Shown here: in pieces, positions 56,585 to 64,000 of the stretch
Layout: each line of letters opens with the position of its first letter
Numbering within the stretch: the stretch's first letter is position 1
Assembly: GCA_902598125.1 (NCBI GenBank)
Contig: CACKAJ010000001.1
Coordinates: 186,001-250,000 of the forward strand
Source of the DNA: an uncultured Pelagibacteraceae bacterium
GTDB taxonomy: Bacteria > Pseudomonadota > Alphaproteobacteria > Pelagibacterales > Pelagibacteraceae
Length of the DNA stretch: 64,000 nucleotides
Direction of reading: 5' to 3'
The notes under the pieces: model-generated
Databases searched by the model: none
What the model was told of the DNA's origin: nothing
What the model saw: the letters and a program-made list of their open reading frames with translations, nothing else
Translations under genes and position numbers: made by a program

Positions 56585-57679
56585 TTAAATTTTTTTAATC
56601 AATGATTTTTCTATTATTTCGTCCTCTAAATTAATATTAAAATCTCTTTTTTCTTTACTATATAGGTTACGTATAAAACTAAATAAATTTTTAGCATATA
56701 AACTTGAAGCAGTAAGTGGTAGGCTATTCATCAAATTTTTAACACCTATTATCTTTATCCCATCAATGGAATTGATCTTACCTGCCTCTGAAAATGCAGA
56801 GTTTCCTCCGTTTTCTGCTGCTAAATCATAAATAATTGACCCTGGTTTCATAAGTTTTACTAAGTCCTCAGTTAAAATTCTAGGAGCAGGTTTTCCAGGA
56901 ATTAATGCAGTGCATATTACTATATCATTTTTTTTAAGAGCCTCTTTCATCATTTCAGCTTGCTTTTTTTTATAATCATCTGATGCTTCTTTTGCATATC
57001 CCTCCGCAGTTTCCATATCTTCATTTTGTTCAACTGTTAAAAATTTTCCACCTAAACTTTCTACTTGTTCTTTTGATGCAGCTCTTACGTCTGTTGCTGA
57101 AACGATAGCGCCTAATCTTTTAGCGGTCGCGACAGCTTGTAAACCTGCTACACCTGCTCCAATGACTAAAACTTTAGCCGCTGGTACAGTACCTGCAGCT
57201 GTCATCATCATAGGTACAGCTTTTTCAAATTCTGCAACACAATCAATCACTGCTCTATATCCAGCTAAATTTGATTGTGAAGATAAAACGTCCATTGATT
57301 GAGCTCTTGTAATTCTAGGAAGTAATTCTAAAGAAAAAGGTTTAATCTTTTTGCCAATAATTTTATCAATTTGATTTTTATTTTTTGATGGATTAAGCAT
57401 ACCAATTAAAATTGTATTATCTTTTAAAATTCCAATTTCATCTTCTGAAGGGCAATTAACTTTCGTAATAAGATCGCTTGAGTTGAATACCTCTTTTGAA
57501 GACGCTTTAATCTCCACTCCAATATTTTTATATTCATTATCATTAATTCCAAGGTGAAGTGCATATCCTGTTTCAACACATACTTTTAATCCAAGTCCAA
57601 TTATATTCTTCGCTGACTCTGGAGTTAAAGAAACTCTTTTTTCTAAGTTTATGTTTTCTTTAATTGAACCAACTATCAT
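56585..57679 (-). CDS. pntAa: NAD(P) transhydrogenase subunit alpha, NAD-binding part
   Basis: Soluble NAD(H)-binding domain I, related to alanine dehydrogenase. It is 364 aa from ATG 57679. The frame is open up to 57754, but that overlaps the coxIV gene, and the family begins at MIVGSIKENINLEKRVSLTPE. The nucleotide site VLVIGAGVAGLQAVATAKRLGA is near the middle, with RAQSMDVLSSQSNLAGYRAV before it. Confidence 0.95.
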   Translation of the reverse strand: MIVGSIKENINLEKRVSLTPESAKNIIGLGLKVCVETGYALHLGINDNEYKNIGVEIKASSKEVFNSSDLITKVNCPSEDEIGILKDNTILIGMLNPSKNKNQIDKIIGKKIKPFSLELLPRITRAQSMDVLSSQSNLAGYRAVIDCVAEFEKAVPMMMTAAGTVPAAKVLVIGAGVAGLQAVATAKRLGAIVSATDVRAASKEQVESLGGKFLTVEQNEDMETAEGYAKEASDDYKKKQAEMMKEALKKNDIVICTALIPGKPAPRILTEDLVKLMKPGSIIYDLAAENGGNSAFSEAGKINSIDGIKIIGVKNLMNSLPLTASSLYAKNLFSFIRNLYSKEKRDFNINLEDEIIEKSLIKKI

Positions 57680-57696
57680 TATTTTATTTTTTGATT

Positions 57697-57807
57697 TTAA
57701 AGCAATGTAATTGCCAGAATTACCAATATTAAAATGACTACAATTGTTCCCCACAATACGAACTTTGTGAAACCGTCATAAGTTTTTTTAAAATCGTTAT
57801 CACTCAT
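57697..57807 (-). CDS. aa3-type cytochrome c oxidase subunit IV (small)
   Basis: A 36-aa peptide, MSDNDFKKTYDGFTKFV and then one membrane span (LWGTIVVILILVILAITLL). The pattern acidic start, T-x-x-GF-x-KF, W-G-T, hydrophobic helix is that of the alphaproteobacterial COX4_pro_2 family. It lies 17 bp upstream of pntAa on the same strand, a pairing I recall from other alphaproteobacteria. It stands next to the transhydrogenase rather than the oxidase genes. Confidence 0.85.
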   Translation of the reverse strand: MSDNDFKKTYDGFTKFVLWGTIVVILILVILAITLL

Positions 57808-57944: not shown

Positions 57945-58060
57945 GCCTGGCAACGTCCTACTCTCCCATATCTTAAGACAAAGTACCATCGGCGCTGAAG
58001 GACTTAACTTCCGAGTTCGGAATGGGATCGGGTGTGGCCCCTTCGCAATAATTACCAGGC
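57945..58060 (-). rRNA. rrf: 5S ribosomal RNA
   Basis: About 116 nt. The ends GCCTGGTAA and TTGCCAGGC pair to form helix I. Internal sequences CCACACCCGATCCCATTCCG, AACTCGGAAG and GATGGTACT match the bacterial 5S consensus. No 16S or 23S sequence is adjacent: tRNA-Val and glycan genes lie upstream. Ends may be off by a base or two. Confidence 0.95.
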
Positions 58061-58132
58061 AGAGATTTATAGTGTTTTTGGAGATTTATGTAAAGACCAA
58101 TTATGTAGCAAGATTGCATGAATATTTAATCA

Positions 58133-58207
58133 TGGTGGGACCAGCAAGGATCGAACTTGCTACCCCTTCGATGTCAACGAAGTGCTCTACCAATGAGCTA
58201 TGGTCCC
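58133..58207 (-). tRNA. tRNA-Val(GAC)
   Basis: A 75-nt tRNA with encoded CCA. Acceptor GGGACCA pairs with TGGTCCC. The anticodon arm is CTTCG-TTGACAT-CGAAG, anticodon GAC. T loop TTCGATC. Located 72 bp upstream of the 5S gene on the same strand and 10 bp after the last glycan gene's stop codon. Confidence 0.95.
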
Positions 58208-58217
58208 ATTAATAAAT

Positions 58218-59144
58218 TTAAAGGATTTTATTATCAAAATTATTTAATTTTTTATAATACTTTATAGTCTCATCTAATCCCTTAACAAAATTTATCTTAG
58301 GAAACCAATTCAAAGTTTTTTTAGCTTTAGAAATTTTAGGATATATTTTTAAAATTTCATCCTTTCGAAGTTTTATTTTACCAAACATTGGTTTTCCACC
58401 TTTAATTTTCTTTACAAGAATATTTATCAAATTTTTAACTTTTTTTGGTTTTGCTGAGCCGATATTTATTATTTGCCCTAATGCTTTTTTGTTATTTAAA
58501 GATTTTACAACAGCGTTTACTACATCTTTTACATGAATAAAGTCTCTAAATTGTTTTCCGTCAGAACAAGGAAAATTTTCATCTTTCAAACAAGAATTTA
58601 TAACAATTGGAATTAATCTATTTTTATCTTGTCTTGGCCCATATGCTTGGTAAAGCCTTAAAATAACAACTGGAAATTTTTTCTTTTTGTGTAATTTAAG
58701 AAGATGATTTGTGGCAAAAAGCTTTGCTTTAGAATAAACTGACTGAGGATTTCCAAAAGAAGTTTCTTTGTGTGGAGACTTTAAACGACCATATTCTCCG
58801 CTACTTCCCATTTGAACAAATTTTTTAATATCTTTGTTTAAAAAAAAATTACTTAAATTTTTGCAACCTTTAAAATGACTATTGAATGTTTTTGTTTTAT
58901 TAGTGTGATCAACATAACCTCCTAAATTAACTACATAATCAAATTTTCCCTTTATTTTTTTAAGATCCTGTTTTTTTGAAAGATCTCCATTTATATATTT
59001 TACTTTTTTTAAGAATCTTACTTTTTTTGGTGGATTTTTTGAAAAACTCACTACCTCCCATTTTTTTTTTAAACAATAATTAATAAGATGAAAACCAATA
59101 AAACCTGTTCCACCGACTATAAGAATTTGAATTTTTGGTTTCAA
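58218..59144 (-). CDS. NAD-dependent epimerase/dehydratase
   Basis: A 308-aa extended short-chain dehydrogenase. NAD-binding VGGTGFIGFH is at 10-19, the catalytic set is GSSGEYG with YSKAK, and RLYQAYGPRQDKNR and DFIHVKDV are conserved. It follows the cytidylyltransferase gene with a 4-bp overlap, so it may act on a CDP-sugar; nucleotide-sugar specificity cannot be read directly. Last gene of the cluster before tRNA-Val. Confidence 0.85.
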   Translation of the reverse strand: MKPKIQILIVGGTGFIGFHLINYCLKKKWEVVSFSKNPPKKVRFLKKVKYINGDLSKKQDLKKIKGKFDYVVNLGGYVDHTNKTKTFNSHFKGCKNLSNFFLNKDIKKFVQMGSSGEYGRLKSPHKETSFGNPQSVYSKAKLFATNHLLKLHKKKKFPVVILRLYQAYGPRQDKNRLIPIVINSCLKDENFPCSDGKQFRDFIHVKDVVNAVVKSLNNKKALGQIINIGSAKPKKVKNLINILVKKIKGGKPMFGKIKLRKDEILKIYPKISKAKKTLNWFPKINFVKGLDETIKYYKKLNNFDNKIL

Positions 59145-59869
59145 TTGAATTTATTTTTTTTATAAATTTTCTCTAACACTTCTTTATCACGAAGAGTATC
59201 CATGCACTTCCAAAAACCTTTATGTTTAAATGCGTATAATTGATTATTTTTAGAAGCTTTCTCGAGAGGTTCTTTCTCCAAGATAGTTTTGTCGTTTTTA
59301 ATTAATTTAAAAAAATTATAATTTGAAATAAAAAATCCACCATTTATCCATCCAGTGGTTACTTGTGGTTTTTCTTTAAAAGTGTTCACACGATTGTTTT
59401 TTATTGTAATCTCTCCAAACCTTGCTGGAGGCCTAACTGCTGTGACTGTAATAAGTTTTTTACTATTTTTATAAAATTGAACTAATTTTTTTATATTCAC
59501 ATTTGAGACACCGTCACCGTAAGTAAACATGAAATCTTCATTTTTATTTATAAATTTTGCCATTCTTTTAATTCTTCCTCCAGTAAGTGTATTTTCTCCT
59601 GTATAAGATAGTGTTATTGAAACATTAAAATTTTTAGTTTTGTAATTAAAGGCTTCGTCTAATTTTTTAAATTTTTTAAAATAATTTTTTACTACCTGAC
59701 TTTTGTGACCTAAGGCAATAAAAAAATCTTTGTGACCATATTTTGAATAATGTTCGATAATATGAATAAGTATTGGTTTATTTCCAATTTTAATCATTGG
59801 TTTTGGAATGGTCTTAGTGTACTCAGAAATTCTTGTTCCTTTGCCGCCTGCTAAAATTATTGTTTTCAC
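59141..59869 (-). CDS. rfbF: Glucose-1-phosphate cytidylyltransferase-like nucleotidyltransferase
   Basis: Likely makes CDP-glucose from CTP and glucose-1-phosphate for deoxysugar synthesis. It is 242 aa, slightly short for RfbF. LAGGKGTRISEYTKTIPKPMI (6-26) is the nucleotide-binding signature, then YTGENTLTGGRI, FMFTYGDGVS, VTAVRPPARFGE and GGFFISNYNFF. The usual partner, CDP-glucose 4,6-dehydratase, is not seen in this window unless the adjoining epimerase-like protein fills that role. Confidence 0.85.
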   Translation of the reverse strand: MKTIILAGGKGTRISEYTKTIPKPMIKIGNKPILIHIIEHYSKYGHKDFFIALGHKSQVVKNYFKKFKKLDEAFNYKTKNFNVSITLSYTGENTLTGGRIKRMAKFINKNEDFMFTYGDGVSNVNIKKLVQFYKNSKKLITVTAVRPPARFGEITIKNNRVNTFKEKPQVTTGWINGGFFISNYNFFKLIKNDKTILEKEPLEKASKNNQLYAFKHKGFWKCMDTLRDKEVLEKIYKKNKFN

Positions 59870-60630
59870 TAGTTAAGTTTTAAAATTTTTGTGTTCACTA
59901 CTCCTTCAAAACCTTTTATTTTTTTTGGTCGAATGTTGCAAACATCTTTTACCTCAATAACTTTTAGATTAAACGGTTTCGCTAATAAATCCACACCACT
60001 TTTTTTATCTAAACGAATAAAAGGCCCAGTTACTATATCAATGTTTGGTTCAAATATTTTATTATCAGGCAGATGTTCTGTTAATACTAAATATTTATAT
60101 TTTCCTTTAATAAGTTTAATGAAATTTTTTATCAAATCATTCGATAGGTGTTGTAAAACTTGACGCACAAAACATATATCACTTGAAGGGAGCGCGTCTC
60201 TAGCAATATCTAAAACTCTAAAATCAACATTTAGAGAAGAAAATTTTTTTTTATTTTGTTCAATTAATTCATTAAATATGTCTACTGCTATATAATTACC
60301 ACAGTGTTCCCTTAATTTTGAACCAATAGAAAAATCTCCACAGCCAAGATCTACAACAGAAGGTTTTAGAGAAAATGAATTTAAAAATTCTTTCATCTTT
60401 TCCAAATAGGTTTCAATAAATTCATCGTGATGTGATCCTATTCCTGAATAAAACCTGTGGACCTTTTTTTCTTTTTCTGGGCTCCAAATTTTTTTATTAT
60501 AAATTTCTGCGAAAATTTGTTCATTTTTCATTTTTTTAAATTTATTTTTTTGAATATTTATCAAAAAATTTTTAAGAAATCGTATTACAAAAAGAGGAAG
60601 TATAAATTTTAAAATTTTTTTCACAATCAT
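59869..60630 (-). CDS. SAM-dependent methyltransferase
   Basis: A 253-aa class I methyltransferase. The SAM-binding motif VVDLGCGDFSIG starts at residue 92, followed by acidic IAVDIFNELI and the FVRQVLQHLSND segment. The first 25 residues are hydrophobic and basic (VKKILKFILPLFVIRFLKNFLI), possibly a membrane contact. The substrate is unknown; the context suggests a sugar or glycan. Overlaps the next gene by one base. Confidence 0.8.
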   Translation of the reverse strand: MIVKKILKFILPLFVIRFLKNFLINIQKNKFKKMKNEQIFAEIYNKKIWSPEKEKKVHRFYSGIGSHHDEFIETYLEKMKEFLNSFSLKPSVVDLGCGDFSIGSKLREHCGNYIAVDIFNELIEQNKKKFSSLNVDFRVLDIARDALPSSDICFVRQVLQHLSNDLIKNFIKLIKGKYKYLVLTEHLPDNKIFEPNIDIVTGPFIRLDKKSGVDLLAKPFNLKVIEVKDVCNIRPKKIKGFEGVVNTKILKLN

Positions 60631-61851
60631 CTAACTATTAAATTCCCAGGTATTTATTATTTTTCTTCTTTTCTTTATTATTTCAAAAAATTGGTTGAAC
60701 TCTTTATTTTCATCCACAGACTCCAAAATTTTTTTACCGTTAAGTAATAATTTTTTTTTAGTATTTTCATTATTAAGTATTTCTTTCAAACCATTAACCA
60801 TTGTCATTGGTTTAAATGGATCGATATAAAGTACAGCTTCTTTATAAACTTCTTTTACGTTGTGAATGTCAGAATATAAGACAGGGACATTAAGCATGAA
60901 CGCTTCCCATGGAGGAATGTTTGTAGGTCCACTGAATGTTGGCATCGTTAATGCAACAGAATTTAAATATAAATAAGGAAGATATTTGTCCTCCACAAAG
61001 TCCAAAAAGAAAGAATTTTCTTGTTGACCTGTTTCTTTTGAGTAATTTTTAATTTTATTTAAATACCCTTTATCGCTTCCACAAAATACAGCTGACATTT
61101 CTATATTGAGTTCATTATTTAGAATCTTGATTACATCAATGATATACTTATGATTTTTATGCGGTAAGTACATTGCAGGATAAAAAATATACTTTTTTGG
61201 TAAATTATATTTTTTTTTTAATTCTTCAAAAAGTTTTGGTTCATAATTTCTGTATTTAGAAATTCCTAAGGAAGGCCTATGATTAATTACGTAAATTCTA
61301 TTTTTTTCAACGGAATAAATTGAAGAGATTTTATCTTTAATAATGTTAGCGTTAGTGATTACTGCTATAGCTTTTACCGTTGATTTTGAAATAATTTCAT
61401 CTCTTCTTTGGAATTCAGATGATTTCGTCCATTCTGGAAACTCGAGATCTTCTCTGTGTGACAAATCTGGAATAGTAATAATAAAATCTGTATTTTCTAA
61501 ATACAAAGAATATTGGGAAGGACCAGTAAAATATACTAAATCTATATTCAATTTTTTTAGTAAATTTTCAAATTTATTGCTAAAGAAAAAATATTTTTTT
61601 AGACGCCTTATTGTAGGATCATAATTCCGTAAAAAAGCTATGTGTCTCTCAAAAAAATTCATTGAGAGGTAATAAGTTTTCAAATTAAGCTTATTTGACT
61701 CGATTTTTAGATTTGGGGAAGTAGAGATAATTGATATATCAAGCTTGTCTTGAAATTTAGAACTTATTTTTTCAAGCATATACGCCAATTCTTGGTAGGC
61801 TCCACCAGAATTTTTCCTGGTGTCTAAAAAAATAGCAATTTTTTCTTTCAT
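60631..61851 (-). CDS. Family 4-like glycosyltransferase
   Basis: A 406-aa GT-B transferase. The C-terminal half has YIFYPAMYLPHKNHKYIIDVI and AVFCGSDKGYLNKI, then the donor-site motif PTFSGPTNIPPWEAFMLNVP, similar to the EX7E region of GT1/GT4 retaining enzymes. The start KIAIFLDTRKNSGGAYQEL is a typical first strand with a glycine-rich loop. Donor and acceptor are unknown. Confidence 0.85.
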   Translation of the reverse strand: MKEKIAIFLDTRKNSGGAYQELAYMLEKISSKFQDKLDISIISTSPNLKIESNKLNLKTYYLSMNFFERHIAFLRNYDPTIRRLKKYFFFSNKFENLLKKLNIDLVYFTGPSQYSLYLENTDFIITIPDLSHREDLEFPEWTKSSEFQRRDEIISKSTVKAIAVITNANIIKDKISSIYSVEKNRIYVINHRPSLGISKYRNYEPKLFEELKKKYNLPKKYIFYPAMYLPHKNHKYIIDVIKILNNELNIEMSAVFCGSDKGYLNKIKNYSKETGQQENSFFLDFVEDKYLPYLYLNSVALTMPTFSGPTNIPPWEAFMLNVPVLYSDIHNVKEVYKEAVLYIDPFKPMTMVNGLKEILNNENTKKKLLLNGKKILESVDENKEFNQFFEIIKKRRKIINTWEFNS

Positions 61852-62813
61852 TAAGATGAATAAATAAATTCAATCATTTTCATGATTTCTAAACCATCCT
61901 TGGCTGAGGGAGAAATTTTCTTTTTATTTTTTACATTTGAAATAAAATTGTCGATTTCTAATAAATATGAATTTGGTTTAATATGACTAAAATCTTTTGA
62001 AAAAACTTTTTTTTCTTTAATATTTGACCAAAAGATTTTATCTCCGCCGTGGGTATCGAATCTCCCATCAACATTTATGTATCCATCAGTCCCATTTATT
62101 TCAAAAAAGAAATATCCTGATAACAGTCGCCACGAACAATATATAGTTGCAGTTCTATCATCCTCTGTTTTAAATATACCGCTTGCAGTATCCTCAACTT
62201 CTATATTTTTCCAATAAACATTTGAGATTAATCCTTTACCAGAAATAAAATTTCCTACAAACAATCTGGACAAATCAAGCAAATGACACCCATTATCTAA
62301 AAGAGTTCCTCCACCACTTATGTCTTTTTTCCAAAACCACGAGTCTTTCAATCTTTCTCCGTTATGACCTATTCTTCCATTAAAACTCAGAACTTTTCCA
62401 ATAGTTCCTTCTTCCACTAATTTTCTTGCATACATAACACTTTCAAAAAACCTATGGTTTGAAGCAAGTTGTAAGACACCTTTTGAATTTTTAGTAACTT
62501 CAAGAATTTCTTTCGCTTCTTCGACATTTCTAACGTAGGGTTTTTCACAAAAAACATTCTTACCTTCATTCAAAGAGTCTAAAATTATTTTTTTATGGAA
62601 TTTATTCGGCGTACAAATGCAAACAGTATTAATTGTTTCATCTTTAAGAATCTCTTCGTAGCTTTTCACCGGAGCACCTAAATCTTTTGAAGCTTTTTTT
62701 GCATTCTGATCATTCAAATCAAATAAGCATTTTAAATTAGCGTTTTTCGAGTCATTAATCGCTTTAGCTCTTTTAACGCCGAAAGATCCTAATCCTATTA
62801 CAGCAAAGTTCAT
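61851..62813 (-). CDS. Gfo/Idh/MocA family oxidoreductase
   Basis: A 320-aa NAD(P)-dependent sugar dehydrogenase-like protein. The Rossmann motif VIGLGSFGVKRA is at 5-16, CICTPNKFHKKII near 65-77, the family's EKP at 90-92, and a C-terminal domain with GGTLLDNGCHLLDLSRL carrying the catalytic His. With the DegT aminotransferase next door it fits oxidation of a sugar before amination; this is inference. Confidence 0.87.
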   Translation of the reverse strand: MNFAVIGLGSFGVKRAKAINDSKNANLKCLFDLNDQNAKKASKDLGAPVKSYEEILKDETINTVCICTPNKFHKKIILDSLNEGKNVFCEKPYVRNVEEAKEILEVTKNSKGVLQLASNHRFFESVMYARKLVEEGTIGKVLSFNGRIGHNGERLKDSWFWKKDISGGGTLLDNGCHLLDLSRLFVGNFISGKGLISNVYWKNIEVEDTASGIFKTEDDRTATIYCSWRLLSGYFFFEINGTDGYINVDGRFDTHGGDKIFWSNIKEKKVFSKDFSHIKPNSYLLEIDNFISNVKNKKKISPSAKDGLEIMKMIEFIYSS

Positions 62814-62816
62814 ATA

Positions 62817-63761
62817 TTAATATCCAATAGCATTTTTTCTTATATCTGACCATTCCTCAAGAGAATAAGTAATTTTTCTCTCTTTATCTAATTCATCAAT
62901 ATTTTTAATTTTTCTTGCAAGAATTATGTGATGATTACGCAAGTGTGAAAACAAAAAACCTGTATTTTTGACAAGCTCATATATTAAATTTTTTAAAGTT
63001 TTTTTTATTTTATGTTTCTTAATTTTTTTTTTATTATCATCAATATAAAAATCACCCTGCTTTCTATCAAAAAATTCATGTTTAACTACCTCAAAACCAC
63101 TTCTGTTTAGAATAAATATAAGCTCTTCTTTACTAAATTCCCTATGATGAGGACGATGATTTCCTCTATAAACCATTGAGGATAATACTGGATGTACGTT
63201 AGGGCTTTTTCCTTTTCTAAGCATATTAGAGATATATAAAAAATTTGTTATATTATCGGTAGTAATCAATAAATGACCATTGGTTTTTAGGGAATTATTT
63301 ATTTTATCTAAACAATATATCGGGTCAACTAAATGTTCAATTGTATCAAGAAGGTAACAAACATCAAAGTTTTTTAATTTCCAATCTACAGACTCTTTAG
63401 ACTCAACAAATTGAGGGTCAATTTCAGTGTTAATACAATTTACATTGTATTCTTTCATTTTCGTTTTAAATTCATCATTTAAATCTAAGCCGATTGAATA
63501 GTATTCAGAAATATTATTAAATATTCTTTTACTTAAAAAATACATGTTCCCAGGAAATGAACCCACATCAATAATTTTTGGATTTTTTAAATTTTCCTTT
63601 TTAAGGATTAAATCTAAATAATTGTTAACTTTAAAAAATCTTATGAAACTCATGATGAAACTATGTTTAGATTTCATTTTATCTCTAAAATCATAGTCTC
63701 TTATTTCCCATTTGAATGGTTTATAATTAATTACAAACTGTTCATAGTCTTTATAATTCAT
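62817..63761 (-). CDS. SAM-dependent methyltransferase
   Basis: A 314-aa protein with a class I methyltransferase core: KIIDVGSFPGNMYFL from about residue 62, DVCYLLDTIEHLVDP near 135 and the GHLLITTDNI strand. HHREFSKEELIFILNRSGFEV follows. The C-terminal 80 residues are basic and do not match the core. Substrate unknown, presumed glycan-related from the neighbours. Confidence 0.8.
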   Translation of the reverse strand: MNYKDYEQFVINYKPFKWEIRDYDFRDKMKSKHSFIMSFIRFFKVNNYLDLILKKENLKNPKIIDVGSFPGNMYFLSKRIFNNISEYYSIGLDLNDEFKTKMKEYNVNCINTEIDPQFVESKESVDWKLKNFDVCYLLDTIEHLVDPIYCLDKINNSLKTNGHLLITTDNITNFLYISNMLRKGKSPNVHPVLSSMVYRGNHRPHHREFSKEELIFILNRSGFEVVKHEFFDRKQGDFYIDDNKKKIKKHKIKKTLKNLIYELVKNTGFLFSHLRNHHIILARKIKNIDELDKERKITYSLEEWSDIRKNAIGY

Positions 63762-63773
63762 TTAAAGTTCTTT

Positions 63774-64000
63774 TTAAGATGCTTTTTTTATAACATCACA
63801 AACAAAATCGATTTCTTCATTTGTTATAGTATTTCCTGAAGGTAAATATAATCCATTATCCATAATATAATTTGCGTTTGGACAATCATCTTCTTTAAAC
63901 ATTTTATATTTATCAATTAAAATTTTTTGTTGGTTAATAGGAACAAATGCATCCCTGGTATCAATATTATTATCTTTTAATTTTTTTGTTAACTCGTCTC
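63774..64000 (-). CDS. DegT/DnrJ/EryC1 aminotransferase, C-terminal fragment
   Basis: The last 75 codons of a PLP-dependent sugar aminotransferase; the rest lies beyond the window. IDTRDAFVPINQQ and DNGLYLPSGNTITNEEIDFV match the C-terminus of this family, in which a stretch like YLPSGxxLTxEEID is diagnostic. The PLP-binding lysine is not in view. It is 12 bp upstream of the methyltransferase and likely provides an amino-sugar for the cluster. Confidence 0.85.
   Translation of the reverse strand, partial: DELTKKLKDNNIDTRDAFVPINQQKILIDKYKMFKEDDCPNANYIMDNGLYLPSGNTITNEEIDFVCDVIKKAS

Follow-up and report, generated by a model that had tools for sequence, protein, structure and literature searches.

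A surface-glycan island within the sole rRNA operon found in a Pelagibacteraceae genome, and a split-off 5S rRNA gene that appears to have its own promoter

SAR11 bacteria are among the most abundant bacterial groups in the sea. Here, we describe a locus in a 64,000-nucleotide stretch of DNA (the window; positions 186,001 to 250,000 of contig CACKAJ010000001.1, hereafter C1, assembly GCA_902598125.1) from an uncultured member of the Pelagibacteraceae, where the 5S ribosomal RNA (rRNA) gene (57945..58059, minus strand; Rfam RF00001, 95.5 bits vs a cut-off of 38) stands apart from the other rRNA genes at the end of a cluster of surface-glycan genes. Coordinates are those of the window unless prefixed with C1. 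The nearest named PntAA loci, at up to 92%, belong to the Pelagibacteraceae, i.e. SAR11, which places the host in this group. A first-pass annotation of an interval beginning at 58061, just upstream of the 5S gene, had noticed that 5S and tRNA-Val close a colinear run of surface-sugar genes without 23S sequence in the 5.9 kb upstream. Both observations hold: the 5S gene, a tRNA-Val(GAC) gene (58133..58207, minus strand; found by ARAGORN, starting 10 nt after the last glycan open reading frame, ORF) and seven glycan-type ORFs from 58218 to the window end all lie on the minus strand, and neither 23S nor 16S is present anywhere in the 64-kb window. Extending the contig rightward, as that annotation had proposed, leads on the same strand to the sole 23S gene found in the assembly (C1:273175-275925, minus strand), 29,115 bp from the 5S gene, and then to the sole 16S gene found (C1:276368-277841, minus strand), with tRNA-Ala and tRNA-Ile between the two, likewise on the rRNA strand. 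The glycan genes thus occupy a split-operon position between 16S-23S and a 5S gene that was also found once. No complete operon elsewhere and no second rRNA operon was found in the assembly (1.02 Mb, 10 contigs, 87.7% complete), making a second operon in this genome unlikely at that completeness.

The island from 23S to tRNA-Val spans 28,967 bp, reaches the 23S end at position 87175 on the window's scale (C1:273175) and contains 29 ORFs (at least 60 amino acids, picked by script), all 29 on the rRNA strand, with 98% coding sequence and a GC content of 24.9%. Pfam was scanned with 28 of these ORFs (one spanning two fetched pieces was left out): 20 matched, mostly sugar-gene families, i.e. mostly cytidylyltransferases, NeuB-like synthases, glycosyltransferases, methyltransferases, epimerases, an aminotransferase and an ABC transporter, and eight had no Pfam match at E 0.01. 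Surface-glycan genes therefore make up the majority of the island. The part within the window, all on the minus strand, comprises from the 5S side an NAD-dependent sugar epimerase/dehydratase, the final island gene (i28, 58218..59144; PF01370, 156 bits), an rfbF-like sugar nucleotidyltransferase (i27, 59141..59869; PF00483, 90.7 bits; TIGR02623, 275 bits, under the cut-off of 300), a methyltransferase (i26, 59869..60630; PF13649, 33.2 bits), a group 1 glycosyltransferase (i25, 60631..61851; PF00534, 78.4 bits), a GFO/IDH/MocA oxidoreductase (i24, 61851..62813; PF01408, 93.6 bits), a second methyltransferase (i23, 62817..63761; PF13489, 39.9 bits) and a DegT/DnrJ aminotransferase continuing beyond the window (i22, 63774..64000; PF01041, 365 bits). 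In a comparison with 31 other sequences, the threshold used left nine of the 29 ORFs without a relative, and 17 of the remaining 20 had a median identity of 28-52%; three were higher, i.e. one at 69% and two at 83% and 64%, the latter from one match each. The four core proteins beside the 5S gene, in contrast, are 86-98% identical. The island is hence hypervariable against a conserved flank, and the conserved gene content that would have told against the first-pass annotation is not what we see in these sequences, which represent one genome per species.

The locus is the SAR11 hypervariable region 2 (HVR2), or O-chain cluster, in agreement with the annotation's comparison to the glycan-rich region between 23S and 5S of Pelagibacter. 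The split of the SAR11 rRNA operon has been described since 2007 (PMC2217521), when a large surface-sugar region flanked by the sole 23S and 5S genes was reported for HVR2 of Candidatus Pelagibacter ubique HTCC1062, which is 48 kb long and holds other genes, compared with 29 kb here. The O-chain clusters of Pelagibacterales likewise have 16S-23S on the left and 5S on the right, span 10-90 kb and have a similarly low GC content (23.8% there, 24.9% here; PMC11898729). HVR2 of the freshwater SAR11 (LD12) has the same 23S-5S position (PMC6018831, PMC4053759) but measures 54.8 kb in LSUCC0530. Other arrangements have been reported as well: genomospecies Ib.4 has a cluster that ends close to tRNA-Val and tRNA-Met, its 5S lying elsewhere (PMC11898729), unlike the pairing of tRNA-Val and 5S seen here, a SAR11 genome with a translocated 5S gene has about 880 kb between 23S and 5S (PMC12421898), and the operon is unsplit in HIMB59 and in clades IV and V (PMC3815206, PMC7318151).

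The rRNA genes were searched in 61 genomes, 37 of the same genus (including the window's own) and 24 of a sister family; where no match was obtained, the genome may just be incomplete. Among the 37 same-genus genomes, 5S was found in 24 and 23S in 13. Five carried both on one contig, separated by 24.0, 27.5, 29.1, 45.7 and 57.2 kb, and four had them on separate contigs. In the sister family, both genes were found in 15 of the 24 genomes and lay 88-96 bp apart in all 15. Since the split recurs across the genus and the genes are linked in the sister family, the arrangement is not due to chance. The linked 16S-23S-5S operon of the sister family has the same rRNA genes in the same order as the window's genome, but its 5S gene, 88-96 bp past 23S, lacks a promoter before it and, in the one example folded, has complementary flanks (-16.2 kcal/mol, compared with -2.0 in the window).

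On the 23S side, the border of the island is sharp. In all 13 sequences reaching it, conservation past the 23S 3' end stops after about 16-18 nt and the sequences then diverge. In the window's genome, this conserved stretch is predicted to pair with the leader of 23S (about 24 nt at -21.0 kcal/mol, a value obtained without a shuffle control), so the island looks as if it begins beside a 23S processing stalk, which would leave the 23S half self-contained.

On the other side, the 5S gene is preceded by a candidate promoter (58066..58094, minus strand) composed of a -35 TTTACA (58089-58094), a 17-nt spacer and a -10 TATAAA (58066-58071), i.e. by its sequence a sigma-70-type layout with both hexamers at a fixed place before the gene. 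The same motif precedes the 23 same-genus 5S genes with enough upstream DNA (G005, with 44 nt before 5S, was excluded from the counts, and the motif is visible there by eye): the -35 is TTTACA or TTTACT, the spacer is 17 nt in 22 of 23 loci and 19 nt in one, and the -10, which is TATAAA or TATAAG in 22 of 23, mostly ends 6-7 nt ahead of the aligned 5S start. We also considered a sample of named loci, i.e. the best 80 of 574 confirmed stretches from a genome-contig scan; no 5S match was obtained in 11 of 104 sequences, and L071, L075 and L079, which duplicate G018, G009 and G030, were excluded from the promoter and rpmJ-distance counts. The 23 same-genus loci have a mean consensus score of 9.65 out of 12 vs 7.43 when shuffled (z 10), with all 23 scoring at least 9 and 15 at least 10 (2% expected), and 65 other named loci average 9.66 (z 20.6; 61 of 65 at least 9, 47 reaching 10), both z values being overstated because relatives are not independent. 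The 15 linked 5S genes of the sister family average 5.87, under their own shuffles (7.29), and none reaches 10; this contrast is plain despite the shared ancestry. The promoter also stays with 5S in the eight genomes having 0.5-9 kb between tRNA-Val and 5S, being weakest in G003. Taken together, the split-off 5S gene appears to have its own promoter, placed such that transcription would begin at the 5S 5' end or directly beside it and probably continue into the rpmJ and pnt genes that follow.

Alternatively, 5S might be made by read-through from the 16S-23S promoter or the island operon, the promoter-like site being incidental. The orientation of all 29 island ORFs on the rRNA strand would suit this, as would the lack of a terminator-like site between the last glycan gene and 5S, and read-through may well add to 5S. 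As the sole source we consider it decidedly unlikely: all 23 same-genus loci have the site at a fixed position and none of the 15 linked 5S genes has it, ORFs facing the opposite way occur in the islands of G006 (7 of 23) and G018 (2 of 28), and both the approximately 880 kb between 23S and 5S in one SAR11 genome (PMC12421898) and the clade with its 5S elsewhere (PMC11898729) speak against it.

The island itself probably drives its own transcription. Its first ORF is a MarR_EPS regulator (TIGR04176, 137 bits vs a cut-off of 88), and the second encodes 165 amino acids whose AlphaFold model (mean pLDDT, i.e. predicted local distance difference test, of 68; C-terminal part below 50) has RfaH as its best Foldseek match (E 9.5e-5, TM 0.41). 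Relatives of the two ORFs were found in 10 and 8, respectively, of 13 left-hand sequences. From these matches we infer that the head of the island carries its own regulator and a putative RfaH/NusG-like elongation factor. Inverted repeats of the form TTCAA...TTGAAC were seen by eye just ahead of the MarR_EPS gene (L005:9727-10029) in G000, G034, G031 and G019 and are possibly an operator for its self-regulation.

We therefore favour, at a probability of roughly 75%, a locus of self-contained halves: an HVR2/O-chain island within the sole rRNA operon found, with a 5S gene under its own promoter, an island that drives itself and a tRNA-Val that is exchanged. Here, a 29-kb cluster of 29 surface-glycan genes on one strand, probably one operon, lies between the 16S-tRNA-tRNA-23S half and the 5S gene. 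The split is probably tolerated because each rRNA half is self-contained, the island starting only past the short 23S processing stalk and the 5S gene relying on a promoter of its own. Several points weigh against this view. A generic promoter scan, which requires a T at the end of the -10, omits the 5S site and lists eight other sites in 800 bp, with 3.8 expected. The promoter is weaker where rpmJ lies at least 0.86 kb from 5S, with 10 of 21 loci reaching 10 out of 12, vs 53 of 68 loci with a nearby rpmJ (Mann-Whitney p 0.02). The one-strand order of the island is not universal, since the rRNA strand holds 43 of 43 ORFs in G015 and 58 of 58 in G019 but 16 of 23 in G006 and 26 of 28 in G018. 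Finally, neither Pfam nor NCBIfam gave a match for the second island ORF, whose model is of moderate quality only.

Evidence for exchange of the right end of the island comes from the tRNA-Val gene. It was found near 5S in 22 same-genus genomes, at 50-144 bp in 14 and at 0.5-9 kb in eight, two of the latter genes being inverted. This proximity is a feature of the window's genus: none was found in 51 named SAR11 loci with 5S, most of them distant in PntAA. In 33 distinct loci we distinguished three dissimilar types, i.e. A (27 loci), B (the window's genome, G028 and L080) and C (G003, G036 and L077). Of the 31 tRNAs found in the window's genome, the one near 5S is the sole tRNA-Val(GAC), and another is a tRNA-Val(TAC). 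The 200-bp stretch before tRNA-Val, compared among 13 near relatives, shows no more similarity (identity 0.578) than shuffled sequence (0.588), at identities of 0.974 for 5S and 0.859 for pntAA; by these comparisons, tRNA-Val belongs to the variable, exchanged side. A tree of the three pnt genes (36 rows) requires six changes of type, the maximum possible, and uniting B or C in one clade is rejected (p 1e-38 and 1.4e-5, respectively). The i27 tree (23 rows) places the type-B genomes in a single group (94/90), those of type C are not grouped, and i26-i28 of G028 and L080 are 62-74% identical to the window's, with i27 and i28 elsewhere mostly at 45-60%. Since the types scatter over the pnt tree and type B goes with i26-i28, the window's tRNA-Val type, judged by these trees, tracks the neighbouring sugar genes and not the core lineages, which supports the view that lineages have exchanged the right end of the cluster.

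The types might instead be ancient variants that were passed down within lineages and randomly lost, or be misread through a pnt tree that itself recombines. Types B and C are known from only three genomes each among the 33 loci, the groups were named after the data had been seen, the pnt genes adjoin the island and may recombine, type C does not follow i27, and the type-B grouping in the i27 tree is reached by 47 of 500 label shuffles (six rows counted). This explanation is nevertheless unlikely in our judgement, as the number of changes on the pnt tree is the largest possible, a joint origin of B or C is rejected and, in each of its three genomes, type B accompanies the closest i26-i28. Another explanation would be that the right edge of the island is a phage or integrase attachment site at tRNA-Val, with island genes and tRNA changes arising by site-specific integration and not by homologous recombination. 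A prophage in tRNA-Val has been reported from a subclade IIa.B cell (PMC7542561), and 8 of 22 same-genus genomes have genes separating tRNA-Val from 5S. However, one of the 33 loci had a repeat of the tRNA 3' end, when about two are expected from single-base shuffles, viral contigs gave no exact match to five tRNA patterns, and insertion of an element at the 3' end of a tRNA would not on its own alter the 5' half. The attachment site is thus not supported, and we regard it as very improbable.

Where exchanges replacing tRNA-Val crossed over bears on a further claim of the first-pass annotation, that the 5S locus is a recombination anchor for surface-antigen exchange. The idea has been published: rRNA genes were proposed as recombination sites or anchors from strains HTCC1062 and HTCC1002 (PMC2217521). 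Exchange of the cluster's right end between lineages is borne out by the tRNA-Val evidence; 5S as the crossover site itself is not established. As tRNA-Val lies in the exchanged part and its types share little sequence, the right-hand crossovers that replaced it must lie to its right, be it in the short spacer and promoter, within 5S or among the conserved genes further on, and 5S and pnt are not separated by these data. Crossovers before 16S and within pnt, i.e. outside the rRNA genes, are given an even chance; the rRNA genes would then ride along and not act as anchors. In favour of this, HTCC1002 and HTCC1062 show peaks of single-nucleotide polymorphisms just before 16S and after 5S, pntB being the gene that holds the most, from which the rRNA genes were inferred to be exchanged together with the cluster (PMC4033161). 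The type-B genomes lean towards a crossover near 5S, as their 5S promoters are more alike (identity 0.786 vs 0.710 over all triples; fraction as high 0.018, or 0.015 when matched for pntAA) and their 5S, rpmJ and pntAA are not; the comparison is post hoc and based on three genomes, and type C behaves in the opposite way (0.667, with 0.93 of triples as high). A crossover inside 5S is thus at most suggested. It is tempting to speculate that 5S-rpmJ is a self-promoting block, and that crossovers in or near 5S swap the glycan module together with tRNA-Val and the 5S promoter, the tRNA being repeatedly traded between species as a passenger, but we hold this to be doubtful. As for the frequency of such events, 14 likely recent whole-cluster swaps have been counted, about 7% of shared clusters, and most clusters are held to be vertically inherited (PMC11898729).

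Beyond 5S, rpmJ, encoding ribosomal protein L36 (57810..57935, minus strand; PF00444, 61.2 bits vs a cut-off of 26.1), starts 9 nt past the annotated 5S end, and the distance is 6-27 nt wherever rpmJ directly follows 5S. Given this spacing, 5S and the L36 message probably share a transcript that would be cut between the two. In 21 loci (including L091, L098, L099, L101 and L102), rpmJ lies 0.86-2.4 kb from 5S, and in most of these an epimerase-like ORF, recognised by eye, directly follows 5S, i.e. a sugar gene beyond 5S. In G015 (L014, L173), 5.4 kb separate 5S from pntAA and contain glycan genes 83-86% identical to the window's, namely relatives of i22 (86%) and i24 (83%), well over the usual island identity, which may reflect a possible recent transfer on the far side of 5S. 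Hence 5S is not a strict border, and the border can apparently move.

The next ORF encodes 36 amino acids resembling subunit IV of aa3-type cytochrome oxidase (COX4_pro_2; 57697..57807, minus strand; PF07835, 38.4 bits vs a cut-off of 22). It is present between rpmJ and pntAA in 74 of the 90 loci with 5S and varies in a coding-type manner (mean entropy 0.69, 0.28 and 1.29 by codon position). It is followed by the first conserved pnt gene past 5S (56585..57676, minus strand), which we take to be pntAA. The pntA neighbour in PMC2704228 agrees with this naming; there, a putative structured RNA, the pntA element, is listed in the same gap of HTCC1062. Compared by position, this element may instead be coding.

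Type C tRNA-Val (L024/G003, L031/G036 and L077) has, by eye, a D-loop without the usual GG, a T-loop AGCGTTA and, in all three genomes, paired changes in the T-stem. The end of a glycosyltransferase ORF falls within this tRNA gene in G003 and L077. Staphylococcal tRNA-Gly is an example of a tRNA that does not serve in making proteins, and the odd loops prompted the same thought for type C. The idea was dropped: the neighbours are ordinary glycan-type or other genes, with no aminoacyl transferase recognised by eye, and the genome's tRNA-Phe has a similar loop change.

In the open-access literature, subscription papers being outside the scope, we found no description of an own 5S promoter in a split SAR11 operon, of an RfaH-like ORF in the cluster or of an exchange of tRNA-Val with the cluster. 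To what is published on HVR2, our analysis would thus add the 5S promoter, the sharp border on the 23S side, the exchange of tRNA-Val and the start of the island with MarR_EPS and RfaH/NusG-like ORFs. Our data suggest how the split of the rRNA operon is survived in these bacteria, i.e. by a promoter before 5S and a sharp border after the 23S stalk, and the tRNA-Val type may serve as a marker for tracking exchange of the right end of the cluster.

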